Of a stretch of DNA of 64,000 nucleotides, positions 1 to 52,700 are shown piece after piece; position 1 is the stretch's first letter; each line of letters starts with the position of its first letter. This stretch comes from Undaria pinnatifida (lineage: Eukaryota > Sar > Phaeophyceae > Laminariales > Alariaceae): NCBI GenBank assembly GCA_012845835.1, contig JABAKD010000021.1, positions 10,837,199-10,901,198 on the forward strand. Reading direction: 5' to 3'. The notes beneath the pieces are model-generated. The model was not told the origin of the DNA. It ran no database searches and was given only the letters and a program-made list of their open reading frames with translations. The position numbers and the translations under genes were made by a program.

Positions 1-330
1 CAACCCAACCCAACCCAACCCAACCCAACCCAACCCAACCCAACCCAACCCAACCCAACCCAACCCAACCCAACCCAACCCAACCCAACCCAACCCAACC
101 CAACCCAACCCAACCCAACCCAACCCAACCCAACCCAACCCAACCCAACCCAACCCAACCCAACCCAACCCAACCCAACCCAACCCAACCCAACCCAACC
201 CAACCCAACCCAACCCAACCCAACCCAACCCAACCCAACCCAACCCAACCCAACCCAACCCAACCCAACCCAACCCAACCCAACCCAACCCTACCCAACC
301 CAACCCATCCCAACCCGACACAACCGAACC
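1..330. repeat. (CCCAA)n microsatellite
   Basis: Near-perfect pentamer repeat, grading into AACCG units at the right end. Confidence 0.95.
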
Positions 331-547
331 GAACCGAACCGAACCGCTTTACTACTGTCAAAATTGTCTCCGCGCCAATTTCAAGGTCTTCGTTGAGTGC
401 AGTCCTGAAAAAAGTAGCCTGACCTCTACACGAAACTGAATGTCGAACCCGAGCATCAAAATTCGATACCAAACTTCAATTCCGAATCTCAAGATTCCGA
501 ATCTTGATCCCAAAATCTCAATCCCAAAATCTAAACCCCGAAATCTC

Positions 548-944
548 AATCCAACACGGGTGACATTACGATCGACATGTTCTCGGCGACGCCAAGCTAC
601 CAGCGCTTCTCAAAAGCGTTCTGTTCGCGGTTTGGGGCCAGCTGGTCAGCGTCGATCTGATTAGAACCGAAACCGAACCAAACCGAACTGTTTTACTATT
701 GAAATTTTGTCTCCTTACTATTTCCAAGTTGTTTGCTCCCTGAAACGTCGGCGCAATCCTGAAAGAGGTACTAGCCCAACCTTTGACATGAACCGAAATC
801 TGATACCGAGTCTGAAATCCGAATACCCTACTTCATGATGATTGCGCGGATTTAAAACGAGCGTAGGGGCATTATGACCGATGTTTATTGGCGACGCCAG
901 CGACCAGCATCTCACAAAGCGTCCTGTTCGTGGCTTGGGTCGTG
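548..944 (+). repeat. Two decayed copies of the exon 1 start (548-664 and 858-944)
   Basis: Both stretches align base by base with 1568-1665, including the CAAAGCGT-CTGTTCG and TGGG core. Spacers of (AACCG)n-like and ATCCGAATC-rich sequence also recur between them, so the unit is about 320 bp. Confidence 0.8.
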
Positions 945-1083
945 CACATCCAACCTATAAACCCAACCCATCTAGTTTGCGTTGCTGTCATTGGGAGTTT
1001 GGGTGTGTACGTCCCGAACACGGTTGAAACTCGAAAGTATGTCGTGTGATCAAGTAAACCGCCGGTTGCAGCCCCAATCCCAT

Positions 1084-1500
1084 CCAACCCAAACCAACTC
1101 AACCCTACTCGACCCAGCCCAACCCAATCCAACCCAACCCAACCCAACCCAACCCAACCCAACCCAACCCAACCCAACCCAACCCAACCCAACCCAACCC
1201 AACCCAACCCAACCCAACCCAACCCAACCCAACCCAACCCAACCCAACCCAACCCAACCCAACCCAACCCAACCCAACCCAACCCAACCCAACCCAACCC
1301 AACCCAACCCAACCCAACCCAACCCAACCCAACCCAACCCAACCCAACCCAACCCAACCCAACCCAACCCAACCCAACCCAACCCAACCCAACCCAACCC
1401 AACCCAACCCAACCACCCAACCCAACCCAACCCAACCCAACCCAACCCAACCCAACCCAACCCAACCCAACCCAACCCAACTCAACTCAACTCAACCCAA
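1084..1500. repeat. (CCCAA)n microsatellite before exon 1
   Basis: About 400 bases of CCCAA with one CCACC slip near 1412. It ends about 65 bases before the exon 1 acceptor. Confidence 0.95.
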
Positions 1501-1566
1501 TCCCGAGCCCAAACCAATCCCAGCCCAACCCCAAATCCGAATCCGAATCCGAATTTGGAAGCGCAG

Positions 1567-1779
1567 GGAAATTCTGACCGACATTTTCTTGGCAACGCCG
1601 GCGACCATCGCCCCTCAAAGCGTGCTGTTCGTGGCGTGGGGTCAGCTGGTCAGCTTCGATCTTTTCAAGAATGACGACAACAGCTCCGAACCGTACGACG
1701 AGCCGTGCAATGAAGGAATCGAGAAGTTTGATGTGTGGTGCCCGGAGGGACAGGACTCGAGCGACATCCCCTTCTACAG
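1567..1779 (+). CDS. Exon 1 (in window): peroxidase-like domain, degenerate distal heme motif
   Basis: Residues 1-70. The motif WGQLVSFDL (residues 24-32) aligns with the family motif WGQFLDHDL. The heme-ester Asp is Ser29 and the distal catalytic His is Phe30, while the calcium-binding Asp (Asp31) stays. Further on, Cys residues and PFYR match the family's segment after the WGQ motif. The acceptor is GCGCAG at 1561-1566 and the donor AG|GTACGG at 1779/1780; the exon ends in phase 2 and joins exon 2 to give [12 protein letters not shown]. Two decayed copies of this exon's 5' part lie upstream. Confidence 0.85.
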
Positions 1780-4700
1780 GTACGGAACCCTGTTATGGTG
1801 ATAGCTCTTTTATCAAGTATTACGGTGTTCGGCACTGTTGTTGTAACTTCAACCTTACGTTAGATTCAAATTCAAAGTCAATCAACGTTGACTTCAACTT
1901 CCCTTAATTTCGCTTTTCCTTTAATATCAACCCAGTACGTCGACTCTAGCCTCAACTTCATATTCAACTTGAGCTATAAATTCAACCTGACGCGTTTAAT
2001 CTAAACTACTTTTGTACTTCACCCTCAACGTTGAACATAATTTCAATGACGACTGTAACTTCAACCTAGTAAAATATGTTCTTACTCCAAATTAAACCTG
2101 GACGATGTTAATTTAATACATTAGATGCAACAGCAACTTTCGAATTCTCATTCAACGTCAACTTTAACTTCAATCTATGTTCATTTTCAATTTTAAACTT
2201 CAAATTTATGCATGAAATCTAACTTTTTTAGGTCAACTTCTCAATTTCAACTTCAACTTCACCTCTACTTCAGCCTGAATTTATTCACTTCAATGTTTTC
2301 CACAGGTCAAACGCCACAAACTCGCGCAGGACCGGAGTGCGGAGCCCGATAAATTACGCCACATCCTACCTTGATCTAGACTTTGTTTACGGAAGAACAA
2401 AAGAAGACTCGGACATGCTGCGATCAAACGAGGGAGGCTTCATGAACATCACGGAAACGGGGGTACCACACAAAAATGATAATGGTACTTGGCTTGTGAG
2501 TACGTTTCGTGTTTTTTCCGGGGGGGGAGGCGTGCTGGTTTGTTGCTTGCCTTAGCTAATTGACCACTGACCATGCATCCCTCTAGAGACGGAGCACCGC
2601 GTGTATGTTTGCGGGGTGCGGGTTGGAGGGGAGAGGGCGGAAGGGGGGGCACACCTATTATTGTTGCTTGATTCAATCATTTGACGTTTGACCACGCCCT
2701 CCCTTTTGACGAAGCAGGGGGGTTGGGAGGGACTGGGGCGGGGGGGTTGCAGTTGTTGGTGGTGATGGTGGTTGTGGTTGGTAAAGGCGCGGACGATTGA
2801 ACGAGGGAGGTCTGATGAAGATCCTGGATACGGGCGTACTGCACATGAACTACATGTTACTTGGCTTGTGAGGTTTTGCATTCCCTGTTTGGTGAGGGCG
2901 GGGGCGGGGGGTTGTTAGTTTTGGTGGCGGTGTGAGGGCGGGGGGGGGGTGTTAGTTTTGGTGGCGGTGAATTATTGGTAATGAGGCGTGTTCTTTTCAG
3001 AGGTATTAGTAGTAGCAGTAGTGGTAGTAGTAGTGGTAGTAGTAGTAGCAGCAGCAGTAGCAGTAGTAGTAGTAGCAGTAGTAGCAGTAGTAGCAACAGT
3101 GCAGCAGTACATATTGTTAAAGTATAGACTATGCCAACCAAAAAATGTATTCAACAATTGCCTTGCCCTTAACCACGTGTTCTTCCGTCCCTCGCCGCCC
3201 CCACCCCCACCCCCTGGAGCCGACCGGATCCCCCCCTACCCTACCCATCTCCCTGCCCTAACGCCTGCCTGGTCGGTGAAAACCTGGCGTACTCCGTCCC
3301 GGCAATATAGGGATGCGAGGGTCTGTGGTTATGCATGAAATGAGCACCCCCCCTCCCCCCACCCTTGTGTTGGATTATTTGGACAGATTGCCGACCAGCG
3401 CACGGCTGGTTTTCCGGTGACGTTTGCCCTGCACATCGTGCTGCTGTTGGAGCACAATCGGTGTTGCACTGACATCGCTCCGGACCTGGGGTACAGCGGT
3501 AACGAGGTAAGTCCACCGGCTTGGCAATCGACCATCGCATCGATCATCAGTTTCCATCAACATAATTGGCACGCTGCAAAAAAAAGGCCCCAAATACCCC
3601 CCCCTACCGTAGCTTTGGTCCACTGCAAAAAGAGGTCCCTAGTAAAGGGACCCCCCCCTCTACCACAGCTTTGGACCACTGCAAAAAAAAGGTCCCTAAT
3701 AAAGGGACCCCCTACCGTAGCTTTAGACTACTGCGAAAAAAGGTCCCTAACAAAGGGATCCCCCTACCGTAGCTTTGGACCACTGCAAAAAAAGGTCCCT
3801 AATAAAGCCCCCCCCTACCGTAGCGAAAAAAGGTCCCTAATAAAGGGACCCCCCCTATCGTAGCTTTGGACTATCATATCATATCACCATATCATACCAC
3901 CATATCATATCACCATATCATATCATGCCATATCATATCATACCATATCCTATAACATCATATAACATTATTCATATCTTATCACATATCCTATCATATC
4001 TTTACACGTAACATCATGCCAGGAACAATATCGTATAACATTGTACCACATCATACCGTGAAATATAGCATTATATCATGCCGTACGTACCGTTATCGTT
4101 TTGCAGGATATTTTCCAGGCGTGTCGAGCCTGGACGATTGCATCTTACCAAGAAGTTGTGAAGAACGATTTCGCCATCCGCCTCGTGGGCGTCGAGGTGG
4201 TCGACGAATACGCTCGGGTCAACAACGGTGCCCCGTTCGGTGAGTAAAAAGGGGGGGAGCGGTACTCATTTTAAAGGGACGGGGGAGGGAGGGAGTGCAG
4301 GAGACGGGGGGGGGGGGAGGCATGGAGGAGGGGGAGGCGTGGAGGTGACATGAGGGCGGTAGACGAGTACGCTCGGGTTGACAGCGGTGACCCGAATGGT
4401 GAGCAAGAAGGTACTCATTTTCAGGGAACGGGGTAAGGAGGGAGTGGAGGTAAGGGGAGGGGAGAGGGGTGTTTGTGTCTTTTTTGGGGGGGGGGGCGTG
4501 GAGGTGGTAGACGAGTACACTCCGGTTGGCAGCGATGACCCGTTTGGTGAGCAGGGGGGGGGGGGTGGGATACTCACTCTGAGGGGGCGGGGGGGAAGGG
4601 GGTAGGAAAGAGGGAGGTAGAGATTGGGGGGGGGGGGGGGGGGGGGAGTGGGGGGATGGTAGATGATTATACTCCGGTATCCAACGGTGACCCATTTAGT

Positions 4701-7700
4701 GAGCAAGAACTGGGGGGGTACTCCTTTTGAAGGGGGGGTCGAGGAGAAGCGGGAGGAGGTGGGGGGTGGAGAAAAGGGTAGAGGCGTGGAGGTGGTAGAC
4801 GAGTGAAGTCCGGTTAAAAACGTTTACCAATTGGTGAGGAAACAAGGGGGGTGGGGGAAGGTAAAGGGGGATGGAGGGGGAGTAGAGGGGCGGAGAGGGT
4901 TTGTGGAGGAGGTAGACGATTATACTCCGCTTATCAACGCTGACCCACTCGGTGAGAAATATAACGAACCATCAGTCGGGAGGAGCGGGGAGAGGGAGGG
5001 TGGGAGGGAGGATGGCAAAAAAGATGACACGTACGACGTAATTCCAAAATGCAATTCCCCCTTTTGTCCCTCCTGCCCTAACTTCCGCTGATATTTCCCC
5101 TACACCCACCCCACTTGTTAGTGAAGACCCGACGTGCTCCGTCCCGGCATAGTAAGGATGCGAGGGTCTATAGTCATACGACTACGGCCATGCATAAAAT
5201 GAGTACACCCTCCCCCTCTTGAACCTCTCTCCCTCCATCCATATATCTCTGCATGTTGCTGCCCAGAATCCTCTTCCTACTCCTCCTCTTCCTGGCCCTC
5301 CTCTTCCGTCCCTGGCACCTCCTCTGCAAAGGAGGCCAACGACAACTTCAACTTCTTCAGGTTCAACGAGAGCACGAACGCCGGGGCCGATGTGTTCGCG
5401 ACAACGGTGGGAACAGCGGCTCTTCACGCCGCCCTTCCATCTACGGTCAGAATAGTAGGAGAGGATTACATCCCGACGCTCGAGGTAAGGACCGATGATC
5501 TTTATTTGTGTTTTTCCGGAAGATCCTCGCTTCGTTTAGGAGCGCGATTCTGTGGACGAAAAAAACCCCTGTTTTTCTAACTAGATATCGATGGACTAGC
5601 AATCAGCCCCATGGGCTCAGGTGTACAACGTTTAAAGCAACAAATTAGGAAAACGCCAACGGGTTTAGCTTAAACCATTCAATCGGTCGTACTCACAGTT
5701 GAGCCATCCCACGGTAGGAGTGCAGCAGATTCTAAGAAGTTTCTAAGCTTTCCCCACACGAGGAACTCAATACCTCACCCTGTTATACATGACTTCGAAG
5801 GCATTCGTTCGTTCGCACAACCCGACCAAGCTTCTATGCTCCCTTAGTCCCAAAACAATACGTACAGTCGTCCCCGCTTTAAAGACGCTCGGCTTAAGTC
5901 AACTCCCCGCTATAAAGACGACATTTTTTACAGAACCATGGTGGCCCGCAGATAAGACATACAGTAGGGGGGTGTCGTTTTTTCTCCAATTCCATTCCAC
6001 GGCCCCCCCAAAATTTATCTCGCGAAGCTGCTCAGACAGCGGTCTGCTGCTTTCGACGCTGCTACCTGTGGGTATGGAGAGATTCCTCCCGTCTACTGGC
6101 GGGTCGTAGACATGGACGCTAAGAGTACACCGAAGGTGTTGACCGAGAACTTGTTTGTCGAGAGAGGCGCGGGCCTCTCTGAGAGCGAAGTACGGCAGGC
6201 AGTCAAGATTTGGCTTCGTGTTGAGGATGACCCAGAGGTGTTGGACGAAGAGAAGGAGCTAGAACTCCAGGATCTAGAGGACAACTTCAACGGCATCGAA
6301 CTTGCTGACGGGGAGTCGGGTGACGAGGAAGACGACCTTAGCCCAGACTCGTGCGTCACAACCTCCCTTTCAGAAGCCGAAGTCCGCTCTCGTCTTGAGG
6401 AAGTTCGTTCCTACTTGTACGCGAAAGGGGGAAACGGCGAATACAGCGAATCGCTATTCCTTCTTTCGAGAACCGTTCATTCGTTTACACATGAAACTCA
6501 AGTCAAGCGTAGAGCGAAGGGGAGGGGTGAGGTGCAGTCCACCCTTCGTGATGCATGGAAGTCGTAGTTTGGGAATGCCGTTCTTTGGGCTAAGGTCGCT
6601 GGTGCGATCTGTGATTTTGCTTCGCTCGGCAAACATGTTTCATGCTCTGTGTGGATTCGGTTTTTAAAACTGCAGTGGAGTGAGCTCTCTTTGTTTCAGC
6701 GTTGTGCGTGTTTCGTGCTTCATGGTGTTATTTTTCCCCTGTACTCGAGCTGTGTGGTTTCGGGCGCAGGTGGCTCTCTGGTTGGTACGTGACGTTGAAA
6801 CGGCAGTACGCATATTTTTCATGTGGTGACTACATGAAGCGTAGGCTTCAGAGGAGTGATTTTCAAGTGGGCCAACGAGAGACTAAATGTACTCGAATAC
6901 AGGTTCCCTTGTTTGTAAATACGAACGCAAAGCACGCGCAGTCCACACACGCAAGTAGTCTATGTGCAGCGCCAAGGTTGTAGTTTCTCAGGTTGGCGCG
7001 GGTGGAGGTGATGTCCGCGAAAACTTAAATTCTACATACCTACAACGGCGTGGTGATTCTTTTTCGGCGTTTGCCTGTCATGCCAGTATTCCTGCTGAAA
7101 TGGCGCGTCGTTTGACGTAGGTTACGTCTCCGTTGACCCCGGGGAAGGGGAGTTATTGTCCCCGGAAAGTTAAAGACGATTCCCCGGGTTAAAGACGCCC
7201 TGAAAAAAAAACCCATGTGCGTCTTTAAAGCGGGGTCGACTGTACTCGTGAAATTAGTGTACTAATGACTAGCCGCTAGTTACCTCGCTTGAGGAGCTCA
7301 ATCGGACGTGTAAATTATTAGTCAATCCAACAACTGCGACCCCTACGGTGGGATGAGTTGGTTGAGGGGGGGGGGGGGGGGGAGGTACCCCTGCTTTTAC
7401 TACTGGGGTTTGAGCCAATCGCGCGAGTGACTCTGTACCTCACGGGCAAAAACAAAACTTTATTAGTGAAACAGGTAATTTTTCTTGTTTTTTTTTCGCA
7501 GCTTAGCTTTTACCATTCCATCTTGCGGGATCACATCGCGATTTTTTTTTTAACGCACAGTACGAAAGGCCGATTCTACGATAGCCCCCCCCCCCCCCCC
7601 CCGAAACCAGCTATTTTTTTCAACGAACGCTTCACGACCGCTCGGCACGAGGAAGAGTGGTATGAAAACGTCATCTTCGTGTATGTCCTTGTTTGCAAAG

Positions 7701-10700
7701 GACCACCGAACGATGACCGTCGGGATGGCAAGGGGTCACCTTTTTCAGGAGACACGGCCGATAAGCTGGTTTCAAAACCCTCTAATTTGTTGAACAAATG
7801 TTGGGAGGGCTACCTGAGTAAGACTCGAAAGCTTAAACCACGAAAGTTACAGGGTCACTCGCGCGAGCGACACCGAGCCACTGCAAGAGCATGATCCAAA
7901 ATACCAGCAACATCCTTCCACCCTCCATCACCCCTCCCCCCCTCCTGCTCCCCCCCCCTCCCCCCCCCCCCCCCCCCCGCTAGTCTGCCTAGTTGGCGAA
8001 AACCCGACGTGCTCCTTCCCGGCATAGTAGGAATGCGAGGGTTTATGGTCATACGACTACGGCCATGCACGAACTGAGTAACCCCCTCCCCCCCCCCCCC
8101 CCACGTCCAACCCCCATCCCCATCCCTTCAATTTTCATCACAAAAATAGGACAATACGGAGCTCACAGTAGCAGTGGCCGATTTGGAGGGTATTTTCCTG
8201 CGAAATAACGTCAGCAGCATTTTAAGGGGGGCGGCGCTGTCGAGCACGTTCAATATCGGGGTTCACTTTGCCTCCGCCGTATCGGTGGCCTCGTCCTTGT
8301 TCAAGCTACCGGTCGACGCCGTACAGAGAGGGAGGGATCACGGTGAGTTCTTGGCCCTCTTGGAGCGGGAGCGTCAGTTTCTCACGCGCATTGTCTCTGC
8401 TTTGATGTTTTTTTGTTTTTTCCGCAATTTTCTGAGTTTCTTGTTTGTTTTTTTTTGTTCAATGTTTGGTGCTGTAGCTTTCTGAGATTCTCCTTTTGTT
8501 GGGCTTTTGCAATGTTTTTGTGTGTGTTTTGGTTGTGTCTTTCCGCGTCAGTGGAGCTTTGGAGCGTTGGTGGGCGTTACTGTTTCCGAGAAAGTTGTGC
8601 CGTGTTGTCTTCAGGTCACAAAACGATATCACCACGGGCACTTCGGCCCACTCACACTCAACAACCACTCCTTCCGTCCCTCTGTCCTTCGGTTCCTCCG
8701 TCCCTCCCTCCCTCCCTCCCTCCCTCCTTCCCTTTCTCCCTCCCCCCGTCCCTCCCTCCCTCCTTCCCTCCCTCCCCATCCATCCCATATAGGCGTTCCC
8801 ACCTATAATGATGCGCGAGAAGCGTACGGACTCGCCCGAGCAGCGTCATTCTCTGATATTACTACTGATCGAATCGTGGCGCAGATGCTGAATGACACGT
8901 ACGGCGGGGACATCGGTCTGCTGGATGCCTTTACGGGGGCTCTGGCGGAGGGGAACGGGATGCTGTCGCACGATATTTTCGGCGACCTGTTGCGGGTATG
9001 TACAATCAAAAAGACCACGACGCGCGCGATGATATAGGGGAGGTGGCCCTTTTTTTTTTGGTGGGAAAAAAATACAAGCCTTTGTAAAAGATGACGCACG
9101 CTACGATAAAAAAAAGACGCGTTCTACGATAGAGGTATACCGTTTTGTGGCGGAAATGGTTTCTGAATACGATTGAGGTATACCGTTTTTTGGCGGGAAT
9201 GGTTTCTGAATACGATAGAGGTATACCGTTTTTTGGCGGAAGTGGTTTCTGAATACGATAGAGGTATACCGTTTTTCGGCGGAAATGGTTTCTAAATACG
9301 ATAGAGGTATACCGTTTTTTGGCGGAAATGGTTTCTGAATGACGGGGCTCCTCAACCCGAAAATCGTCGTAAATAGGCCATATATATTTTTTTCGTGTTT
9401 CTCGTTGTGTATTTTTAGGCCATAGGATTCTTTATCCGGTAGGGGGGTTCGTTTTTCTCCAAAATCAGTTTGTGGGAGAGGTTTAACTGAAGCTTCCAAA
9501 ATCGAGGTATCTCAGAAAAAAAACGGGTGCAACTCTACCGCGGCACTTGTCGGTGGCACTTTTGGGGGGGACAACAAAAAACGAAAACTAGTAAGAGACG
9601 ACGCGCGCTACGTTTTTTGTTTGTTTTTTTCCACACTTACTTCTACTTTCCAGCTTTTAAACAAGCCGTGGTCACAGGTGTCGTCCCTTCTTTCCCCCGG
9701 TTCTCGCCTTCAATTTTATCGCGCATAGGGTTCAGTAATCCCACTTCTCGTCGATTTTTTCATCGAGTGTTGCTAACTCACGCTCTCTCGTTTCCCGCAA
9801 GCCAATTTGTGCACAAGAAAAAGTCCCCACGAATTTGTTCGAGTCTGCGCTCGGGGGTCGGGGGGACTCGAGCTCATGAAACTGACCTATACCAGGCTCG
9901 AGGATAACCTGATACGCCACCGGGGCTACGATGTAGAGAGGTGGCACGTTCGGGGGGGCAAAAAACAAGATTTTGTAAAAGCGCGCTAAGATATAGAGGG
10001 GTGGCACCTTTTGAGAGGGGAAAAACATACATATTTTCCAAAAGACGACGCGCGCTACCATGTTGCACAAGGTGACACTATTTTTAGGGGTGTGTCGTTC
10101 TGCGCCCCCCCCCCCCCCCCAACTTTTCTCTAACAAAATCGCCGGTTTTGAAACCAGCTCCCGGTCTCATCTGCTGAAACACGGTGTCCCTTGAAACCCC
10201 GACGTCATCGTTCGATGGACCTTTGCACACAATAAAACATATGGAGGCATTTTAGCACCCTTCCTCGTGTCGAGCAGCCATGAAATGTTCCTTGAAGAAA
10301 AATCGTTGGTTTGGAGGAGGGCTATCGCAGAATCAGTCTGGGAAAAAATTATACTCGGAGTATTTTCTAAAAGACAGCGCGCGCTACCACGACGTAGAGA
10401 GGTGACACTTTTTTTTTCGGGGGGGAAACATGTTTTCTAATAGACTACGCGCGCTGCGATGTACAGAAGCACTTGTGACACTTTTTTTTGGGGGGGGAAG
10501 GGGGCTGTATTTTTTGGTATAATAGACGACGGGCGCTACGATGTGGAAAGGTGGCACTTTATTGGGGGGCACAAAAACAAAATAGATGCTGAATGAATGA
10601 CAGGGTCTCCTTAATTAACCCACTTCCAACTCCTAAAATTTCCTAGTCTAACTCCAAGTGTTTGGGCTCCATGTTGGGAGTGCGGTGCTAAAAGGGTTGG

Positions 10701-13700
10701 GGAGCCGTAGACGCGTTCTACGATGGAGGTGCTCCGCTTTTTTCTCTAATTCTACTCCTTAATTTGGGAGCTTAAGACTTCTCTTAAGACAAAAACTGAT
10801 TTCAAGGAGAAAAAAAAGCTGCTATGATCCCGGATGAAAAATCCCATGGCCTAGGTACACGACAAGAATCATGCAAAAAATAAAAATGTCGTATTTCCGA
10901 CGATTTTGGGATAAGGAGCTCTCCGTCATTCAGAAAAAAAAATCCGCCAAAAAACGGTATACCTCTATTGCAGCATGCATCCGTAGCCTGCAGCCAAGAG
11001 CTGTAATGCGAGAGAGAGGTTGTTACACCCCTGCTGAGCACACCCCCCGTCCCTTTCGCTTTTGTACAACGTTAATCCATTTGTTCGGTTGGGAGCTTTT
11101 CGTTTGCTTTTTGCTTTTGCTTTTTGCTAGTGCATTCGCTCTTGCTTTTGCTTTTGCTTTTTGCTTTTGATTTTTGCAACTGTTTTTGCTTTTCGCTTTT
11201 TTTTTTTTGCTATTGCTTTTGCCTTTTGCTTTTGCCTTTTGCTTTTGCCTTTTGCTTTTGCCTTTTGCTTTTGCTTTTGCTTTTGCTTTTGCTTTTGCTT
11301 TTGCTTTTGCTTTTGCTTTTGCTTTTGCTTTTGCTTTTGCTTTTGCTTTTGCTTTTGCTTTGCTTTGCTTTTGCTTTTGCTTTTGCTTTTGCTTTTGCTT
11401 TTGCTTTTGCTTTTGCTTTTGCTTTTGCTTTTGCTTTTGCTTTTGCTTTTGCTTTTGCTTTTGCTTTTGCTTTTGCTTTTGCTTTTGCTTTTGCTTTTGC
11501 TTTTGCTTTTGCTTTTGCTTTTGCTTTTGCTTTTGCTTTTGCTTTTGCTTTTGCTTTTGCTTTTGCTTTTGCTTTTGCTTTTGCTTTTGCTTTTGCTTTT
11601 GCTTTTGCTTTTGCTTTTGCTTTTGCTTTTGCTTTTGCTTTTGCTTTTGCTTTTGCTTTTGCTTTTGCTTTTGCTTTTGCTTTTGCTTTTGCTTTTGCTT
11701 TTGCTTTTGCTTTTGCTTTTGCTTTTGCTTTTGCTTTTGCTTTTGCTTTTGCTTTTGCTTTTGCTTTTGCTTTTGCTTTTGCTTTTGCTTTTGCTTTTGC
11801 TTTTGCTTTTGCTTTTGCTTTTGCTTTTGATTTTGATTTTGATTTTGATTTTGATTTTGATTTTGATTTTGATTTTGATTTTGATTTTGATTTTGATTTT
11901 GATTTTGCTTTTGATTTTGATTTTGATTTTGATTTTGATTTTGCTTTTGCTTTTGCTTTTGCTTTTGCTTTTGCTTTTGCTTTTGCTTTCGTTTTGTCTT
12001 TCACCCGTGCTCTTGCTTTAGCACCATCAATATCACCATTCTTCGGTCGTTCCCACCCCCTCCTATATTTCGGTCCTCGTTTTTCTCGTTTTTGCGACAT
12101 CAAACCGTTTTTTGGTCGTTTTTTTTATCACCTTTTGCCCGTCGGTGTACATAAACAAGGCGGCGTGGCGAGAACAGTTGTTCCGGGTGATGACCGGAGA
12201 CCGCCTGTGGCACAACGTCACTAACAAGATTGAGGACACGGAGGGCACTACCCTTCGGGGCCTCATAAGGTACCCCCCCCCCTCCCCCCCCTCCACTAGT
12301 TGTATGTATCGAAGATGAGGTGGATCCGGTAAATTTCAAATGGAAGTGGGGAGAAGATGAAACACCGATCGCAGACCAATATACGTACCTTGACGTAGAG
12401 ATGTCAAAGGACTGCTCTTAGGATGCACACTTAGCCAAAGTATTAGGAAAGGGCAAATCACAAGTAGGCAAAAATGCATGCGATCCTGGCAGGCCCGCCA
12501 TTTGACACTAGGAGTAAAATATATATTCTGATTAATGTGATTGTACCAAAGTAAGAGTATGCAAGTATGGGAAGGGAACGCGAAGCTAGTAAAACAGCTG
12601 GAAAACATTGCAGCTGGCAGCATCTAAAAATGTACTAGGATGCTCAAGTACGACGAGTAATGCAGTATTAAGAGAAGAACTAGGAATGCACCCACTGAAA
12701 ACAAATAGAGACGTGAGAAAGTTGAAATGACAATATAAAGTAAAGAACATGCCAGAAAAGAGGTTGCCATCCATAGTTGATATGTCGGTATGAGAGAAAA
12801 TATCAAAAGGGCGAGCTGGAATAAGACGTATTTGCACGGCCCAATGGACTACGCGAAAAAGCTGAAACTGCGATTTCGTGTAGGGGACCTGGACCTACCA
12901 GAAAGAAGAAAGAGATATACCAGTAGTCGGGAGGAGGATGACATGGTTACACATATGTGTCCGTGTAGCACAACAATAGAGAGTAGAACTCACATACTAA
13001 GAGAATGTGAAATGTGCAAGGAGGAACGGGGTGTGTTAGAGGAGGAGATGAGGGAATTAGACGTATGCGACATGGAAGAGTTTGGTAGACTGGAGAGTAG
13101 CGAGAAAACGATCGCTATCCTAGGAGATAGATGGTGGCCGCAGACGGCGAAACAGGACGGGGATAGGATAAGCAAACGGTTTATTTGCACTGTAATGAAT
13201 GGAAGAGGCGTAATGATCGCCCAAATGTTGGAGGTATCTCTATTGGGAGTAGGCACGGTGCTCCGTCTCGATCGGAATGAGTGGTCAATGGTCAAATGAC
13301 TAAGGCAGCAACAAATGAGTACCCCTCCCCCCCCCGCTCCCTCCACTGCCCCCGTGGCTTGCGTCCGCTCTTCTCTCCTCACACGTCCCTCTACATTTGC
13401 CCTCCCCCCTCCGCCCCCTTCCTGTCTCTTCCCGTCCCGTCCCCCTCCCCCCGCCCCCCCTCCATTCCACGCCTCCCTTACTCATGCGAGGCTTTTTGTA
13501 CCCCTCCCGAAATTAGCACACCCGTACCCAACCCACCCACCAAGACCACCGGTTTCGGCCAAACCCTCCGCACGCGGTGTATCTACGACATGATGTACCC
13601 GTTACATGCGAACGACAACGTGACGGATTGGACGGTTTCGCCTCTAACCGTGGCTGCCCTGCTCACCCTTGCTCGTGCGTGTGAATGTTAACCCACCCCT

Positions 13701-37700: not shown

Positions 37701-40700
37701 CCGCAAAATGACCGGGTGCAAGTACGTGCAATGTCTAGCCAAGTAATCGCTAGTCGGCGAAGTATAGCCAGCCAACTTGCAGGCTTTCGATTGTTTTTGG
37801 TGCCGCTGTTGCTTACTCCGCTTCTTTTTGCGTTGTTTCGTTTGAGTTATCTTTCGTGCATGGTACGTTTCTTAATTTCACTCTTTACTTTTGTTCGTTC
37901 ACGTCTACCAGTAAATTCGGTTTGTTTGTTTTTTGGCTAATTTTTGTTTGAAGCATTAACAAGTTTTATTGCTTCGGTTGCACAGGTGGAGAAGGAGCGG
38001 AGAAGGCTAGCTGTTGCTGGAGCGCTAGGTTCCACACCGGCGCCTACTGACCTCGCCCCGACTAGATCTGCAGTGGTGCCCGGCTTCAAGGTTCGGCGTG
38101 TTTGCGGGGGTTAGAGGCGTGGTGTGGAAACTTCTTGGCAGGCGCTATACTTTTCGCCCCTGCCACCCCCGGCCGACACGGCTCATCATCGGAAAACAAT
38201 CGACACCACCTTTTCACCCCTGATCGTATTGTGTTGATTTTTTCCTTTTGTTACGAAGTAGGCCTATTCATGCCCACCACCATCCCTCCTACCCCCCCCC
38301 CCCCCCCCCCCTCAGATCTATATAGTCTTGGAATTACGGTTATGCATGGTGTGAGTACACCCCTCCCCCCCTCCCAACCGTTCCGTCTCCACAAGGGTGC
38401 ACTAAGGCGAGCAACAAATGAGTACGCCCCCCCCTCCCCCTCGGGTGCATTGTCGTTCGACAACATCCGTGCAAGATATAAGTACACTCCTCCCCCTCTG
38501 CCCCCGCTACCTACCCACGAACTAATCACGCCTCTTCCCCCACTACACACCCGTTAGCCTGGAATAAGATAGAGAGGGCCACGGTCGGAATGGAGTGTCC
38601 ACCCCTCAAGAAACATAGGAAAATGACGCCCTCCCCCACCTGAAACCCTTGGCGTTAATACAATATCGAGAGGGGGAGGTTCGCTTTGGAAGGTCCACCC
38701 CCCCCTAGCCACCTTCACCTACCACCACCACCACCACCACCCTCCCCCCCGCCATCTGCCCCTTACCCTCCCATAAGCGAACTACGCTTCCTCCTACCCT
38801 ATATACCCTGGGCTAAAGCACGATTGAGAAGAGAAATTCGTGTCGGAGGAACCCCCCCCCTCCCACACCCCCAACTAATGATGCCTCTCTCCACCCGAAA
38901 CATGGGAATACAGAACAAGATCGAGACGGGGACTGTATTTTAGAGGGTCACCCCCCGCCCCCCTCGCGCCCAACGCCCCCCACCCCCGCACCAAATATCG
39001 CCTCCCCAAAACGTAAGAACATGAGAAGGGGGGAGTTCGCTTTGGACTGATTTCACGAGTGCCCGCTTCGTGCTGAGAGAATGTATGGACATGTCCGCCC
39101 CACCCGACGACCACCCAGCGTATATTTCCCCGATGATTACCCCCCTCCCCCCCCTCCCCCCTCCCCCCCCCCGCCGCCGCCGCCCAAATGAATCAAACCA
39201 AACGTTAGAACAAGATCGAGAGGGGGAAGTTCGCGTTGGAGCGGTTTCACGTGTGCCCCTTCGTGCTTCGAGAAAGGATGGATGTCGGAGGGGATGGCTT
39301 GCGGCCTGTCTACCGTTACGTATTCTCCTGTCCAGGGGAAGCGGAAGCTCTGGTGAGAGAGAGATTCGGGGGGGGGGGGGAAGGGTGGTGGTGGTGGTGG
39401 TGGGGTGTGTTTACTCATTTCATGCGTAGATGTAGTGGGGCTTGTCTTTATTTGTTACTTGCCTTAGCCATTTGACCAGTGACCAAGCAGTCCTTTTGAG
39501 ACGGACCACCGTTCCTTCGTTAGGACTGTACCCACATTTTATGGGACATTCAACTTCGATTTAGCATAACATTTGGTTGTCGGCTATACAAGGACCAAGG
39601 GTGGTGGGTGTAGAGTTGGAGTTGATGGGGTGGGTGGAGGGGGGGCGGGGCGGGGGTGATAACGGTAGTGGTGGAAGTGATTGGGGAGGCAGGGGGCGAT
39701 GGTTTTGGTGCGCTCCCATTGCTACTGCTGCTGCGGGTGTTACCATTGCGTCGGGGTTTTTTTCATTTTGGGGTATTTAATAGGGATACAGCAATGGTAG
39801 TTTGGGCACCATTTGTACGATCTCATAGAGATGAAGAATTTAGCAGGCAACCTTTCTTTCTCAACAAGCGAATGCCAGAGTTTGTTCGGCTCTCACAGCC
39901 TCCAATCTGTAAAATAGCTCTCACATCCTCCAGTCTGTAAAATATCTGTCTCACGCCTAGTGCGACCTTCTCGCCCACCCAGCCGTCGCCGTCCTAAACG
40001 AAAAACGAAACACAATACCATGACTGTCATCATCCTCGTCATTATCGTCGTCGTCGTTGTCGTCGTAATTTTAATAATCGTTGTCATATCATCGTCATCA
40101 TCATCATCAGCATCACGGTATCATCATCATCATCAGCATCACGGTATCATCATCATCATCAGCATCACGGTATCATCATCATCGTCATCATCATCATCAT
40201 CATCATCATCGTCATCATCATCGCCATTGCCATCATTGTCATCGTCATTGTAAAAAAACACATGCGATTTCCCGTATTCAGTTGATGTGGTTTTGTTTTC
40301 TGTGTTTTGTTGTTGATATTCGTTGCCATCATCATCATCATCATCGTCGGCATGATCACCATCGTCATGACTTTGACTGATTTTCCCTTTGTGTTTTGTT
40401 TTTCGTCCAGGTGAAAGCGATCTCAGGCGTGTGCCACTTCAACATGCGAATCATGCGGAGGGACCGAGAGGTAATTACTTGGAAACATATGGTAGTCCGA
40501 CAATTCTTGGACTTTTCTTGAAATGCTCTTGGGGTCTCCTTTTTATCACACCCACCTTCAATATGCGAATCATTCCGAGGGACCGAGAGGTGTTGGCTTC
40601 AAGATATAGTCCGAGACGTCTCTAAAGTTTCTTGGAATTCTCTTTTTAGCAAACATAATATGCGAACCATGCGAAGGAACGAAGCGGTACTGCTCGGAAT

Positions 40701-43700
40701 ATATTCCAACATCACCTTGGGATTTCGAAGAAATCTACTTGAATCTTCTTGACAACAGAAGTACTTCAACACGCGGATCACAAGAGGGGACCGAGAGGTG
40801 TTGCTTGGAAGTATTATCCGAAACGAGCTTGGAAAGTTCTTGGAAAGTTCTTGGATAACTGGATGAACCTTCTTGTAAAAATAAACACTTGAACATGTGG
40901 ATCTTGTCCGAAGGGACCACGGGGTACGACCTGCCAGAATATGATATCACGTGTTGCAGCTGTGGTCTCAGTCGACTTGACGGCATGGCCTGGCTTTCAC
41001 AAAAGGGCCTACAATCAACAAGATGTCCTCATATTTATTAATATACCAGGTGTTACGTCTGGAATATCCTCACCCTAGGCCCCAATTCTCCAATTATCAA
41101 AGTTTTGGTAATTTTCTTCCCCCGGACTTCCGCCTGCCACACCCTGGTTCAACGGTGCTACGATGCGACCGTTGCACCCTTTCCCGCCAGCGAGCAGCAG
41201 CAACTTCTTCGGAATGCTCGTTGGAGCTTCTTGTTAACGTAGGGCAACGTATCGTAACTTGATGTAGACAATCTTGGGCGCTTTTGACGCGGCATATCCT
41301 TTCATACACCACCAACATCAAGGTATTGACGTCATTTTTTTGCCCCAACCCCCACCCCCACCCCCACCCTCCCTTGCGCCTCCGGCCTCCGGAATCTCGG
41401 TAGACCCTGGTCCAAAGGTCCTACAACGCGACCGTCGTGCCTTTCCCCGTCAGTCAGCGGCAGAAACAGCAACATCAGCAGAAGCAAGGCAGCTTCCGAG
41501 CGCAGAGCAGCAGCCGGCTTCGAAGAATTTTCGGCTACGACATGGACGATGATGCCCATGACAATGCTGACGACGACGACGACGATGGAGATGACTACGA
41601 TGGGGAACACGAAGCCGCGTCTGCTACCACCGCTGGCGCTTCCTCCTCCGCCACTACGGGTAACCGCAGAGTCAACGCTCGCTCCAACGCGAACACCAAC
41701 ACCAACAGCAGCTCCATTAACGCCAGCAGCAGAGCTGCAGGAACAGCAGGAAATGCGGCTGTTTGGGACGCAGAAGGCAGCGTCAACGGCAGCATTGGCG
41801 GCGTCAAGAGAGGGCCCAGCTATCGCACGGCCGCCATAACAGCCATGACAAGGGCTCGAGGAAGGATTAACAAAAGCTTTCGGGGTGGGAGTGGGGATGT
41901 GAGCGAGAAAGGGGATGAGGGTAAAGGGGTGCCTCTGTGTATGGAGATGCGAATCCGACATGTTCAGGGAGGCGCGATGAGCACGCTTTTGGAACAGACG
42001 GCCAACGTGAGACTTGACAAATATTTTTTGGTGTCTTACGAGTATTGTTATCGCGGTGGTTTTTTGGATCTGATTCGGGAGGGGAGGGAGATACTCATGT
42101 GTTGCTTGCCTTAGTTATTTGACCATTGACCACGTTTCCTTCGAGATGTGCTGGGCCCGGGGGGGGGGGTGGCGAGAGCTGGGGAGGTTGGTTTGTTTAG
42201 TTGGTTGATTGATTGGTTGGCTGCTATACTGTTCGCAATAGGTTGATTGATTGGCGATTTTTTTGTTTTGATTGTTAATGCATTTATGTGCTGATGAGCT
42301 TATTTGGATCCATATATCGACTGACGTTCTTTCTCACCGACGCATTGGTATTGACCGATTACATCGTCTCCTTGGATAAGACATCTGTCTACAGTTCCCT
42401 CACTCCATCCCTACCACATCGCACCACCTCCACGCCCACCCTCGCCTCTACCCCCGCCGCAACCGCCCCCGCCCCCCCCCCCCCCCCTCACGCTTACCTC
42501 CACCTCCCTCAAATTATCGCGGTATATGTCGCGATGTGGCGCATTTTTTGCCTTCATTTCAGGACCCCGACAACGCCACCGTTCAGCTGCAGGGCCCCTT
42601 CCTGGTGGACAGACTCAAGGTTCCTCCGGCGCACCGCAACGTCGTCATGATCGCGGCAGGAACCGGCGTTAACCCAAGTACGTGCAACAAGCAGTCGTGT
42701 GACGTCGAAAGGATGACTTACGTCGGAGGTTTTTTTTTGTTTTGTTGTTGTCTTGCTTTCGCCGATTTGGTTTTACTCGTGCTGCAGTACACCGTTTTGT
42801 TTTTTTCCAATTTTTTTTTCATGTATGTGTTTCTGGTATTTGGAGTTCCAACCCTGCCCTAGCCCTACCCCACCCCAACCCCACCATACTCTGCCCTACC
42901 CTACGCTACCCTAACGCTACCCTACCCTACTCTACCCTATCTCCACCTGCTTCCGTGTTTGCCTGAAACCATTTTTTTTTGTGTGTGATTTCGACGGCGA
43001 CTTGGCAATGCACAAACGAAACGAAACAGTGATGCAGCTGATCCGTGACTACCAGAGCTTTCAAAGGTGAGGCTGGTGACACTGCGGTACGTTTTTTCAC
43101 ACAGGGGTACAGAGCGGAGGGGAAGAGGAGGGGAGGGTGGGGAGGGGGGGGGGGGGGGAGGGGTTGCGCAAACCCTCTGATCGAAAAAACGACTTCAATG
43201 TTTGATACCTTTTGGTCTTCCTGCCACGCGTAGGGTTTAATTTATTGTTATTGCTTAAACCAGGTATTATCCATCATTGTAAACGCAACAGCTGACACAA
43301 TACACCGAATACCACCGTGTCGTATCACCCAACCTATTACCCTCAAGTCATCCCACGGCAGGGGACTGGTTCTTACCACAATAGCCCCCCCCAAAGTCAG
43401 CGAGTTTCTTTATCAAACGTTTCATGGCTGCTCGACACGAGGAAGGACGCTATGATAAAACTTGTACATTCGTCGATTCTATTGTTTGCAAAGGACTATC
43501 GAAGGATAGCGTCGGGGTGGCAAGGGGGCACGGTGTTTCAGGATGTACGGCCGGGAGCTGGTTTAACAACCAGCTTTCAAAACCAGCAATTTCGTTACAG
43601 AGAAGTTGGGGGGTAAAACAACTCAGGGGTGCAGCAGATTCTGATAATTTTTCTGAGCTTCTGACACGGGGAGCTCAATATCGGCGGAACTTAATTTAAA

Positions 43701-46700: not shown

Positions 46701-49700
46701 CGAAAACGAGATCGGAGCGCGCTGTGATTTCTGTTTGAATCGAGAATAATGACGTTCTTTTGGTCAACTTTTTTCCCTTGCTTGACTCTTTAGTAACCCC
46801 CCTGTCTGGCTGCGCAAAAAAAATCTGCAAGCTTTATTTTCTTTGTGCTTCCGTGCTTCCACCGATAATAATATAAAAATACATACGAAGTACACTTACA
46901 CTTCGCGTGTTGCCCTCCCCCGCTCCCCTCCCCCCCGACCCCACACCCCCTGCAGGCGAAATCTTGCGGCAGGCTGAAAACCGCCATGCTCGTCAGCTTC
47001 GACAGCCAGAAGCTCAACGACCCTACGGCTCCCCTCCCCACTTTCTTCCGACAACACAACCCCCTACAGCGTCGAAAGTATCAGCCCGAGCTCCAACCCC
47101 AAACCCCAACCCAAGAGCAAGAGGAAGAGGAGGAAGATCTCGAGGAAGAGAAAGTGAGAGCGCAAGCTCAAAACGGGAGCCGTCGCCGGTTCCGCCACCA
47201 CCCGCACACCCCTCCCCGCAACTTCGGGGACAACTCTCCCCGCGAGCCTCTAGCATCAGCACGGATGGGTAACAGCGCGTCTGACGCCCACGCGTTTGGA
47301 GGGGGTGGAGGGGGTGACTTGGATTACAGCTCTGATAGCGATGACGATGATGAGGGTGGTGGTGGTGGTGGTGGTGGTGGCGGCGGCGGCGATTCAGCCG
47401 TCGCCGTTCGCCCCACCGCGACTGAAGGGCCGATGAGGCGACGAACGGTTCCTTCCGCCGCGGTAATCATTGCTACCCCCGATCGAGGGTTCTCGAGAGC
47501 GTCCGCCGCGTCAAGGGCTAGCGCGGCATCCCGAGGGGTGTTCGCTTTTTCGTCCAAGGTGCCGCGCCCGCCGTCGCTCACCCCGGTCAGAAGTCGCGCT
47601 GATGGTGGTGGTGGTGGTGGTGGTGGTGGTGGTGTCGGTGCTCGTGGTAGTGTCGATCGTGGTGGCGGTGGTGGGGGTGGGGATCGGGGGATAGAGGATG
47701 GGGACGGTGCAGTATCGGAGACGAGGGGGGAAGGAAACAAGCCTAACCCCTTGCCGGGTAAACGCCGGAAGTATTTCGTGGCCTCCAGGTGAGAGGGTTG
47801 AAGCGCCGGTTGCCTTCTGATCGCTGCTACTAGTATCAGTAACGTTGAGTTAGGTTTTTTTCTTGTTGGATAGGATTTCGATATTCTTCCCTATCTATGG
47901 GCTGGATCTTCCTCTAGATGTTATTTCGATCTCAAGTTTCAGGAAGCTTTGATCTCTGAGTTTTTAGCCTCTTTACAACTGAAACCCCGTTTTGGGGGGG
48001 GGATTACTTGGAATTAGTATAGGACGGAATTTTTGGGCTCAAAAGGGGTAAAGTAGCACCCTCTCCTCTTTCCCCACCCCGTTTTAAGAGGCCAGACATT
48101 TTTGTACTTCACCTTGTGCTTCATTTTTTATCTTTTGCTTTCAATCCACCATCACCGATCACCAGCAAGGATAGGAAGGGGGATGAGAAAGCCCTCGAGA
48201 TGCCCCATTTTCCCCCCATAAACGCCCCGTATTATCTGGTTGAGTACATTGGTCGGTTTTGAAGCCTACGCGTTTGTCTTCGTTTACATCCTTGTTCGTC
48301 AATGCTTGGCTCTCGACTCGAGTTTTGTTCAAATCCGTGACATTGTTTTATATACATTTTTATAATATATATTTATTGTTCAGTCCTCAACCCTGATTTT
48401 TCTTGTTCCGCTTTCATCCTTAACTCCGTTTTTCTTTTTTTTTGTTGAAAATCCACTGCCGACAACAGAGGAGGGAGTTTAGCAGAATTGAAGGACGACT
48501 TCCCAGACATCCTCACCAGAAGTAGCGAAGTGAGCGAGGTCGTGGTGTCACCCGTGGGAGGGGATACTACCCGCACGTCCCCGTCTCTGGAAGAGGCTTT
48601 TTCTTACTCCACCTACGATGACGCTGAAGGCAGCAGAGGGATCGGCGTCGCGGGAGCAGCAGGCGGTGACGATGGCGCCGCGGAAGGCGGGGATGGGAGT
48701 GGAGGGCAGACTTCGTTCTTCTCCGCGGTAGGAGTTGCAGTTGTTAGACTAATGGTTTGTGATAGGTTGAGCTCTTACGAAACATCGGTCGAGCCACGTG
48801 AACGACTGTCTTGGAAGTCACGTTTAGGGCGAGATGTTGGGCTCCTCGCGTTTAGCAGCTCGAGAAACGGCTTAGAATCTGCTGCACAGCCCTCCTGGCG
48901 TGGGACGAGTCTAAGAAGAAAAAAAATGCAAAGCAATGCATACCTCGAAGTATACAGTAGAATGAAGCCCCTCTATAGCGCTGTTTTTTTTATGCTGCCG
49001 GTTGCCCGCCACGCCGATGGAAACAACCAGATGTGGCAGTACACGGGGTAGCGCTGGTTGCCGCTATTCTGCCGGTATTTTCGGCTTGGCACACACCGGC
49101 GCTATACAGGGGCCACTTCCGACCGTATTCACATACTGAAAACGAATAAGTTATTGCATGTTTGGTGCTGTGTACTAGGGTATGTGCTTTCTCGAGGAGA
49201 CGCAGAAACTTGGGTATACTACTAATAGTATCAAAGACATCACTCTTCAGAGTGGCGAGAAAAACTACAATACAAACCAATCACACAGCATATATAATAT
49301 CATCTTCCGTTTCTTCTCCTCCCCCCCCCACCCCCCCCACCCCCGCCCCCGACTCCCCTCGCCCCATTCCACAACTCCTCTAAACACACACGCAAAAATA
49401 GGCGGACTGGCACAAAAAAGACCGACCCCGGCCCGTTTTCAAGGCAACCATGTCCTCCTCCTCAGTCGTGACGCGTCTTAGAGAGGAAAAGGCTACTGAA
49501 GAAGAAAGTTCGATGCGAGAAGCTAGGGAGGGGGATCGGAGACGGGTGGGGGGACAGAGCGAGCGGTGGAGAGGGTTGTCGCAGGAGTTCCGCAATTTGG
49601 AAAATCCTGCGGACAGGAAGATCAGGAAGGGTTCTGTCTCCACGGGGAAGATTGTTATGAATCCCGGGTCTACTCGGGTAAGTGGGATGCTTTTGTCGTT

Positions 49701-52700
49701 GTTTGGCGTTGGGGTCAGTGTCGGTGTTGGTGTTGGGGTCAGTGTTGGTTTTGGTTGTTGTCATTGTTGGTTGTTGTCGTTGTTGGTTGTTGTCGTTGTT
49801 GGTTGTTGTCGTTGTTGGTTGTTGTCGTTGTTGGCTGTTGTCGTTGTTGGTTGTTGTCGTTGTTGGTTGTTGTCGTTTTTTGTAGATGGTGTTGGTGTTG
49901 GTGTTAGCGTTGGTGTTGGTGTTGGGGTCAGTGTTGGTGTTGGGGTTGGTGTTGGGGTCAGTGTTGGTGTTGGGGTCAGTGTTGGTGTTGGGGTTGGGGT
50001 CAGTGTTGGTGTTGGGGTTGGGGTCAGTGTTGGTGTTGGTGTTGGGGTCAGTGTTGGTGTTGGTTGTTGTTGTTGATTGTTGTCGTTTTGTTGTAGGTGG
50101 TGTTGGTGTTGGTGTTAGCGTTGGTGTTCTCGTTGGCGTTGGCGTTGGTACGGTGTTACTGTTGGTGTTGGTGTTGTTGTTGGTGATAGTATTGATGTTA
50201 GTATTGCTGTTGTCGTTTTTGCTGTTGTTGGTGGTGTTGGCGTTTGTGTGGGGATCGTGTTCATTGATGCTATTCGCAGTAGTGGTGTTGTTGTCGTTAG
50301 TATTTGCCAGGGTGTTTCCGGACAAATAGTGAAGGTTGTGCTTTAGTAACTCCTTTAGCGCTGTGTGCACGTTTTCCTAGATAAAATGCTTGGAATTAGC
50401 GCGATAACGGTTTTTGTCAGCAGCGAAAGGATTTCGCCATAGTATTCGTACGGCTTTTTTGTTTTTTTATTGCTTTGTTGATACTCTTGTGAGCGGGGTC
50501 ATTTGGCATTTTGTTTGTAGGTTAATTGTTTGGCACATTGAATGATTGCCAATCCTCAGCGACCTCCACCCCCGCTGCCATCCCACCCTACAACACACCC
50601 TGCAGGGCCTGATAAAACCCGACCGCCCAACGATTGGAAGGGTCACCAAGGCGCACATTCGCGAGCTGATGGGACACGAGATTATCCTGGAGCTGCAAGC
50701 GCTGAATGCTCGTCAGTTGCCTGCCCGGTCTTTCTCCACCTCCTCCTCGGCTTCTTCTGCTTTCCGGAGGCGTTTTGGCGGGGGTAGGGGTAGGGGGCAG
50801 AGTGTTGGGGTTGGCGGCGGAGATGGAAAGCCGGGGTTCCTTCAGGTAAGAAATGTGCCAACACATGCTGGTATTGAACTTAGTGTAGGATTAGGCTTTC
50901 CAAAGAGGCGGTTTGTGATGTTAGCGCGCGGGGTGGGGGGGGGGGGAGGGGGGCCTTCGGGTAAGGTATTTTGTGCTAACATTTTTTTTGGTAAGTTAGG
51001 ACGGAAACGTTCCGGCAAGGAGATGCACTACTGTTTCTTTTGGTGGAAGCCTCCACCCCTCCAACGGAAGCTTCTCGGGACGCTGCTTCCGTCCACGGCT
51101 CCGTGGGAGCAGCTGTGATGGAAGACTCCACGGGACACTCCACTTGTCGGAAGCTTCCACGAAGGTTTCCGTCGGAACTTTCACGCAAACTTCCCTGGCA
51201 GTACCTCCCTCTGAGCGGTAACTCAGATCCGGGGTCACATAGCAGGCCCTCCTCCCCCCTCCCCACTACGGTGCATGTCTTCATATTTATCGCGAGCAGA
51301 ATTCAGCATTTTCTTGCCTCGTCGACTCGCGTCGAAACCGTGTCGTACGCTTTTTGGCTTATTTTTTCCGTATGGATTTTAGTGCGGTATATGTAGAACA
51401 AGTGTATGGATTCTACAATGCCCGTTTTTTAAACTCTATATAAGTAATAGTGTATGTGTTTTGGTGTACACATTATCGAATGGGTTTTGGTATGGCCATA
51501 CTGAATTTCCGTATAGTTCTATTATATGTTTAAAGGAGAATAATATTAGAGGTAGGGAATCGAACCAGGAATAATCTGGCTTAGGTTTCGAGAGAGAATT
51601 TCGAAGGTTGGGTCAGAAACGCTGTGGTTGAAGAGTTGGCATTGATTGCATCGGCATGGCAGTTGTGGTGGATCGTTTTAGCGGCTATACCAAGTGGATA
51701 CAGCACGGGACGGTGCTGGCAGACAGGTGGAACACGCGAGCCGATAGTCGTGCTGTTGCTGGTAACTGGCCGGCAGCCGCGGGGCCAGGTTATTTGTGAT
51801 TTCTCCCACCCACCCGCCCTTTTTATTTCGATGGTGAGGGGAACGAGAGATTTACGAGGATACACAGGTGTTATTATCGGTTGATGTGGTACATAACCGG
51901 GGGCAGATGTACACTTATTATCTACCAGGTATTTGTTATTTTTAGTGGCATATGGAGGTATGTTTATCCAGGAGGGAGTGGAATGGTGTTGTACCGTTTC
52001 GGTGTCTCGGTAGTCCGGGAATGCGTACAGTAGAACCCAGACAGTGAAGGGAGGGAGAGGCGTTTTGTTGGCCAAGACGTGTGCGGGCATGCCACAGAGG
52101 AGGGTGTTGCGGTAGACATGTTAGCCCGTTGCTCTCCCTCCCAAGCCGCAGAAAATGATAAGAACAAACGCAAATTCGAAATACATGGAACAAGTTGGTG
52201 GGTTTTTGTACGCACACGCCAACCACGAATTCAAAGGAACATGAGAAACGAAGTTGCTGAACCAAGCAACTTTTTACCAAATAAGAAAAAAAAGTCAAAG
52301 CAACCCCTTCATGTAGATGCTTTCCAACGCTAGCTACCTTGTACTTCGAACTACCGGACCTAGTGTAGGATTAGCCTTTCCAGAGGCGTTTGGGTGGGGT
52401 TAGGGGTAGGGGGCCGAGTGGTGGGGTTGGCGGGGGGAATGTCAAGCCGGGGTATCTTCAGGTGACGCATTCAGACATGTTCTTCACTTAGTGTTCGAAA
52501 ATAGTTCTTCCTAACAGAACATAGTCGGTGTACTTGTTTACGTTTTCCTGGCCCTGGGGTGGAACCAGGGGATATTTTTTGCCCGATTGCCTTTGAATTG
52601 GTGTCGGACACACGTTGCCCCCCGCAATGTGTTTCGTTTTCTTTTTTTGAATCCTGGCCTCCAAAACTACAAAAAAAGCGACCTTAAGATGCAGCCCTGA

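Follow-up and report, generated by a model that had tools for sequence, protein, structure and literature searches.

The 64-kb window, by which we mean the whole stretch of DNA that was analysed, contains one long brown-algal peroxidase gene of 34 exons on the + strand (1567-56312), the 5′ end of which lies outside the window. Exons 1-33 were placed from reading frames and splice signals, and exon 34 (56217-56312) is the terminal one, with the stop at 56312. The model gives a single open frame across exons 1-30; at junction 30|31 (48238-48469) exons 30 and 31 are out of frame, and the model may lack a small exon or a different splice site. The product is predicted to combine animal-haem-peroxidase, DOMON-like, cytochrome b561-like, cytochrome b5 and ferric-reductase-like NAD parts. 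The peroxidase (PF03098, 1e-53) and cytochrome b5 (PF00173, 4e-8) parts have Pfam matches, and the DOMON part has one slightly below the Pfam cut-off (PF03351, 6e-7); the cytochrome b561-like and NAD parts, assigned by eye without a Pfam hit, are presumptive. When the first 1017 residues of the product were used as the homology search query, eight of the nine best homologs (the top nine of 78 listed) showed 46-49% identity over 97-99% of the query, and the best homologs were from the brown algae Ascophyllum, Pylaiella, Undaria and Ectocarpus. An open frame of 199 aa in intron 5 (5968-6567) bears a resemblance, by eye, to the final part of a DDE-type transposase, and a frame in intron 8 (12781-13299) resembles, likewise by eye, a retroelement reverse transcriptase in its C-terminal part; partial copies of this second frame occur in introns 10 and 11 (15300-15550 and 16380-16800). 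Look-alike repeats with a core of about TATACCGTTTTTTGGCGGAAATGGTTTCTGAATGACGGGGCTCCTTAACCC were also recognized by eye on either strand of several introns, partly as tandem arrays (9125-9340, 21460-21749, 23140-23200, 36003-36798 and 53190-53693).

Each exon edge, taken as 60 exon plus 20 intron bases, was compared with its own intron by Smith-Waterman alignment with low-complexity sequence masked, and 300 equal-length pieces of other introns on either strand, together with the reverse strand of the own intron, served as nulls. Under strict scoring, 14 of 67 edges, belonging to 13 exons, scored above all 300 null segments on the same strand (125-220, against null maxima of 55-105), and none of the 67 was significant on the reverse strand of its own intron. 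These are the acceptor (A) edges 1A, 9A, 16A, 21A and 25A and the donor (D) edges 2D, 4D, 12D, 16D, 18D, 20D, 22D, 24D and 33D. An earlier permissive scan gave 15 of 66 edges as positive, among them a weak match at 14A that was discarded, having missed the border by 12 bases and failed the strict test; since permissive gap scoring passes long weak alignments, strict scoring was adopted for the tests. Counted permissively, 32 copies at 14 borders score at least 120, or 27 copies at 13 borders when the five copies at 16A, with 9 exon bases each, are set aside. The sequence-only reading had reported about 37 copies at 14 exons, always on the side of their own border. The copies are real, but 32 were counted here; the sidedness is borne out by the absence of any match to the opposite intron among 54 edges of exons of at least 100 bp; and 13 of the 14 exons are recovered by taking the earlier numbering, as it appears, to run one behind the present model after exon 12. 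The remaining one, its exon 25 and probably our exon 26, lacks a significant copy (p 0.08 at 26A).

The introns have grown, as had been proposed: the spans from the border to the outermost copy total 9,901 of the 48,357 intron bases. Since later insertions lie within some of these spans, the sum is an upper figure. A comparison of all exons with all introns, on both strands and with permissive scoring, gave 151 matches, 123 of them in non-adjoining introns (68 and 55 per strand). The latter were mostly long weak alignments of.55-.65 identity, although a few, in repeats, reached.80; strong matches that touched an exon border were those to the adjoining intron. No sequence was found in this comparison to recur in many introns in the manner of introners or dispersed elements.

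All of the copies lie on the + strand. On the acceptor side, there are two copies of the exon 1 edge within 553-961 (553-658 and 860-961) and two of the exon 9 edge (13567-13805, spacing 152 and 159); the exon 16 edge ends each of five units of 170-176 bp (24711-25435), the exon 21 edge forms a four-copy ladder (33137-33746, spacing 169-185), and the exon 25 edge has a single copy (41119-41248). By eye, the acceptor region of exon 15 (22950-23000) resembles the 170-bp units ahead of exon 16, so the acceptor of exon 16 may have originated as the copy of another acceptor. On the donor side, single copies were found for the edges of exon 2 (2784-2901), exon 20 (32913-32990), exon 22 (37414-37509, 1.9 kb into the intron and past a dispersed-repeat block) and exon 33 (52317-52481, 1.6 kb into the intron). 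The exon 4 edge forms a ladder of five copies (4339-4961; borders at 4398, 4546, 4698, 4833 and 4951; spacing 118-159) and the exon 24 edge one of four (40552-40946; borders at 40589, 40686, 40797 and 40923; spacing 97-126). Exon 12 was copied once nearly whole with its donor edge (18438-18573, with in-frame stops), exon 16 once over 67 of its 68 bases with its donor edge (25969-26064), and exon 18 three times within 30159-31215 (30159-30309, 30473-30637 and 31091-31215), the first two of these copies crossing both borders of the exon, with upstream overhangs of 25 and 3 bases.

The compact ladders run head to tail, with the exon part plus the intron part of a unit approximating the spacing of the copies, which overall is 97-185 bp. 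A unit of 73 exon and 104 intron bases corresponds to a spacing of 177 at 21A and one of 35 and 62 to 111 at 24D, while units of 117-153 correspond to spacings of 118-159 at 4D. Unit and spacing agree at 4D, 16A, 21A and 24D and nearly so at 9A, in a realignment that leaves out copy 1 of 18D and copy 1 of 24D. This agreement, the same-strand bias (14/67 versus 0/67) and the position in the adjoining intron support local tandem duplication, which the sequence-only reading had put forward. The single copies lie 200-1,900 bp from the border; those at 12D, 22D and 33D are 0.7-1.9 kb away and lack a full unit, with dispersed repeats intervening at 22D, so that their tandem origin is presumptive.

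The copies' exon parts are mostly 67-92% identical to the exon and contain frame-breaking gaps, and 11 in-frame stops occur in 549 codons of 31 of the 32 copies. In the same 31 copies, the homologs carry the exon's residue alone at 145 of 243 residue-changing codons and the copy's alone at 14. The differences between exon and copy number 136/669, 159/663 and 196/661 at the three codon positions; near-even values at positions 1 and 2 and more at position 3 would be expected from free drift of the copies plus some silent change in the exon. The translation was aligned with 14 of the 78 listed homologs, and six of them were inspected at every border up to 29|30, a comparison that excludes 1A and 33|34. 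At the well-aligned duplicated borders (2|3, 8|9, 12|13, 16|17, 18|19 and 20|21), the six homologs show no protein insertion beyond a residue or two, and therefore the exon-proximal splice site is the one required by the protein; at borders 4|5, 15|16 and 22|23 the homologs align poorly. Where the homologs align well, the exon-proximal site is used, and the copies are decayed.

Decay with distance, which had been read as a feature of several ladders, was assessed from the fraction of the common alignment columns (34-98 of them) in which a copy matches the exon, values being listed here starting at the border. The decay is clear in 4D (.80.74.69.71.69) and 24D (.91.76.79.79) and weak in 9A (.76.71), but absent in 1A (.79.81), 18D (.67.64.74) and 21A (.84.76.84.84), and hence is no rule. 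The non-exon bases common to the copies exceed expectation at 4D (35 versus 10.5) and 21A (17 versus 2.8), mildly so at 1A, 9A and 24D and not at 18D (9 versus 11.4); such an excess indicates either amplification inside the array or change in the exon. Contrary to the prediction of simple one-sided decay, the unit at 9A and in two of the 21A copies shows greater similarity in its intron part than in its exon part.

Local duplication extends well beyond the exon edges. When 60-bp tiles of introns and exons were each searched for a same-strand copy in the same intron, 140 of 625 intron tiles in the window were positive (reverse strand, 21), with rates from the border inwards of.20,.18,.14,.23,.25 and.27. 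The corresponding rates in myosin and kinesin genes of the same genome were.108,.146,.124,.143,.141 and.121, with 317 of 2457 tiles positive overall (reverse strand, 26). A true hot spot at the junction would raise the first intron tiles; since they are not raised, the border does not behave like one. Exon tiles in the window had copies in 13/64, 7/56, 2/37 and 0/137 cases at offsets of 0, 30, 60 and at least 90 bp, and those in the other genes in 20/120, 9/120, 4/119, 2/111 and 0/546 cases at 0, 30, 60, 90 and at least 120 bp; the reverse strand gave none throughout, and copies of exon tiles are gone by a depth of about 120 bp. In an earlier test with 80-bp tiles, local copies were found for 90 of 423 interior tiles in the window, and for 32 of 198 outside ladders and without dispersed repeats. 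The intergenic end of the window, a single 7.7-kb stretch, gave 2 of 79 non-dispersed tiles and 7 of 106 tiles in all, and with so few copies there the duplication may be denser in genes.

Compared directly, the exon edges of the window do not differ from non-dispersed intron tiles (13/64 versus 89/408, p 0.87), nor do those of the other genes from all intron tiles (20/120 versus 330/2562, p 0.21). Against tiles without dispersed repeats, the edges in the other genes are higher (20/120 versus 184/2562, p 0.0006), with the edges themselves unfiltered because exons have paralogs and the dispersed-repeat filter is inapplicable to them; hence there may be a modest excess at the border. A longer memory of the frozen exon half also predicts a higher rate at the edges. 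Young copies are rarer at the edges, with identities of at least 0.9 in 3 of 33 edge copies versus 107 of 406 intron tiles (p 0.035), whereas one-sided decay should make edge copies look younger. Fresh decoy splice sites may be selected against, which would account for the scarcity of young edge copies.

The same pattern was found elsewhere in the genome (511 Mb, 68 contigs). The best 30 myosin head exon matches (of 75 listed) and the best 30 kinesin matches (of 130 listed), each with 1.5 kb on either side, provided 120 edges, of which 10 were dropped as too masked. A same-strand copy was found for 17 of the 110 usable edges (for 16 of them at a score of 120) and a reverse-strand one for none; some of the matches contain stops (for example, that at L006), and loci of one gene can overlap. 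Two myosin paralogs, L010 and L011, apparently share one copy event, so the 17 hold at most 16 independent events. Together with L003 they form a set of paralogs on one contig (C22) in which the same donor edge is copied at a similar distance of about 250-258 bp, which suggests one event older than the gene duplications. One kinesin exon (L047) is flanked by four copies, three of them on the same side. Two kinesin matches 29 kb apart (G000 C2:16037041-16037637 and C2:16066188-16066784) have the same score and the same exon spacing, which would fit a large tandem duplication of recent date. In a strand-oriented analysis, the positive edges of the myosin and kinesin genes comprised 11 donor edges (of 53) and 6 acceptor edges (of 57), and those of the window 9 (of 33) and 5 (of 34). 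With p 0.07 for donor against acceptor edges when the two sets are pooled, we claim no donor excess.

In P-type ATPase genes (PF00122; 11 of 17 matches listed, one below the family cut-off), 2 of 22 edges had a same-strand copy, below the rate of the other genes, and 0 of 22 a reverse-strand one. Over all four gene families, 33 of 199 edges (about one in six) are positive, with cut-offs that differ slightly and two of the 33 possibly being one event; in the three families other than that of the peroxidase, none of 132 edges was positive on the reverse strand. The suggestion that the process is general in this genome is thus supported as far as it was tested, and the observation, made in four gene families, is real. 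Five 10-kb stretches chosen by position contained same-strand local copies for 132 of 768 tiles and reverse-strand ones for 54 of 768. They hold tandem arrays such as a 332-bp unit present twice at 97%. In one of them (L064), inverted and direct local copies occur together, and 36 of its 160 tiles account for a large part of the 54 reverse-strand cases.

Several explanations of the exon-edge copies could be considered. The region is rich in simple repeats, so similarity by chance or low complexity comes to mind; yet the sequence was masked, the edges exceeded matched null segments and gave nothing on the reverse strand, and the result was replicated in other genes, which refutes this explanation and leaves it a negligible probability. 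A more specific proposal, made in the sequence-only reading, is that the splice junction itself is the duplicated object and that new copies repeatedly push older ones outward. The outward decay in 4D and 24D, the inclusion of the splice site in the copies and the excess of other-gene edges over non-dispersed tiles all fit it. On the other hand, in neither data set does the copy rate of intron tiles show a trend with distance from the border, young copies are fewer at the edges, and copies at 4D and 21A share non-exon bases as ordinary arrays do, a pattern in which exon change may have a part. With a clear gradient in two of six ladders only, a general conveyor of border copying finds no support, and we consider border-directed growth unlikely.

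The sequence-only reading further held that introns could be created by tandem duplication of AGGT-bearing exon segments. This is a known mechanism (PMC3443670), and tandem duplications are abundant in the introns tested; however, in none of 33 introns does the donor side resemble the acceptor side, so creation of these introns in this way is unsupported, bearing in mind that very old gains would no longer show the likeness. Two scans of viral contigs yielded no DNA of another brown alga for comparison. The copies, moreover, adjoin a border that must presumably have existed before them, and we regard this origin as very improbable. No better placed is the idea that the copies are dead alternative or mutually exclusive exons. 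Nearly whole exons were copied at 12D, 16D and 18D, two of the three exon 18 copies extend beyond both borders, and the donor GT is retained in most donor copies. But those two exon 18 copies, which carry in-frame stops, are the only ones among the 32 to extend over both borders, frame breaks are common, and no whole exon with both splice sites and an open frame was found among the 32, which gives this reading only a slight chance of being right.

The retention of the donor GT deserves a separate consideration. The border GT is present in 16 of 17 window copies versus 67 of 120 other GTs of the same alignments (p 0.0025) and, in the other genes, in 9 of 11 versus 32 of 62 (p 0.10 alone, with borders there chosen by consensus; pooled p 0.0003), figures in which copies within one ladder are not independent. 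The acceptor AG shows no extra retention (4/8 versus 70/117). Beyond the GT, the donor-strength test detected no selection in the copies, the remaining motif scoring 3.38 against 3.72 expected from neutral decay, a result that also counts against dead exons. It is conceivable, though rather improbable, that much intron length came from local tandem duplication and that selection kept the donor GT of the copies, but not the acceptor AG, for instance as spare U1 sites in long introns.

We favour, with a probability of roughly 0.8, the reading that the exon-edge copies are the exon-anchored fringe of a pervasive local tandem duplication of intron DNA rather than the product of border duplication. 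The introns tested are strewn with local same-strand copies. Small stretches of DNA would be duplicated side by side throughout the introns, and wherever a unit straddles an exon-intron junction, an additional exon edge with its splice site is found inside the intron. Such duplications are probably tolerated because the exon-proximal site keeps working, splicing staying with that site and ignoring the inner ones, and units reaching deeper into the exon would be purged by selection. That the exon edges stand out may be due chiefly to selection, which freezes the exon half: a border copy would diverge on one side only and remain recognizable for longer than a pair of intron copies. The source of the duplications is the least certain step and may be ordinary small tandem duplication through break repair or replication slippage. 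The net effect would be a piecemeal lengthening of introns, of which the exon edges keep a fossil record. We see no sign, from the donor and acceptor sides of the 33 introns, that those introns were themselves created by tandem duplication.

Intron gain by tandem genomic duplication was reportedly described by Hellsten et al. in 2011 and by Gao and Lynch in 2009. Minisatellites are built of repeat units placed head to tail, and the units of about 100-185 bp in several of the present ladders are alike in this respect; the difference is that here the end of the unit is an exon under selection and that the copies are diverged and few. Tandem genomic duplication of an AG|GT-bearing segment is a route of intron gain (PMC3443670), and cases from Drosophila have been presented in similar terms (PMC2891723). 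The likeness lies in the tandem duplication of an AG|GT segment and the splicing out of the duplicated DNA, whereas there an exon-internal segment becomes a new intron and here both the junction and the intron receiving its copy existed already, and no donor-acceptor likeness was seen. Exonize (PMC12343006) counts full-exon duplications and has exon-intron-spanning and intronic match classes; exon sequence recurs in introns in both cases, but the present copies are mostly one-edge fragments, several of them in short-period ladders. Small tandem duplications made by fill-in at DNA breaks are reported for human and mouse cells in another study (PMC8355091) and likewise leave copies side by side, although in different cells and by a route that for the present copies would be conjectural. 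In the titles and the beginnings of abstracts of open-licence papers in PubMed Central, a scope outside which most subscription papers fall, nothing was found that describes introns as lengthened by ladders of exon-edge copies.

The finding bears on how long introns come about. Long introns are usually attributed to transposons. In the genes considered here, exon edges held in place by selection act as reference points that would expose an older layer of intron growth by small tandem duplication, and exon-edge copies offer a countable measure of such growth that could be applied to any genome. The copies also show that a gene can be retained although its splice junctions have been duplicated into introns many times.
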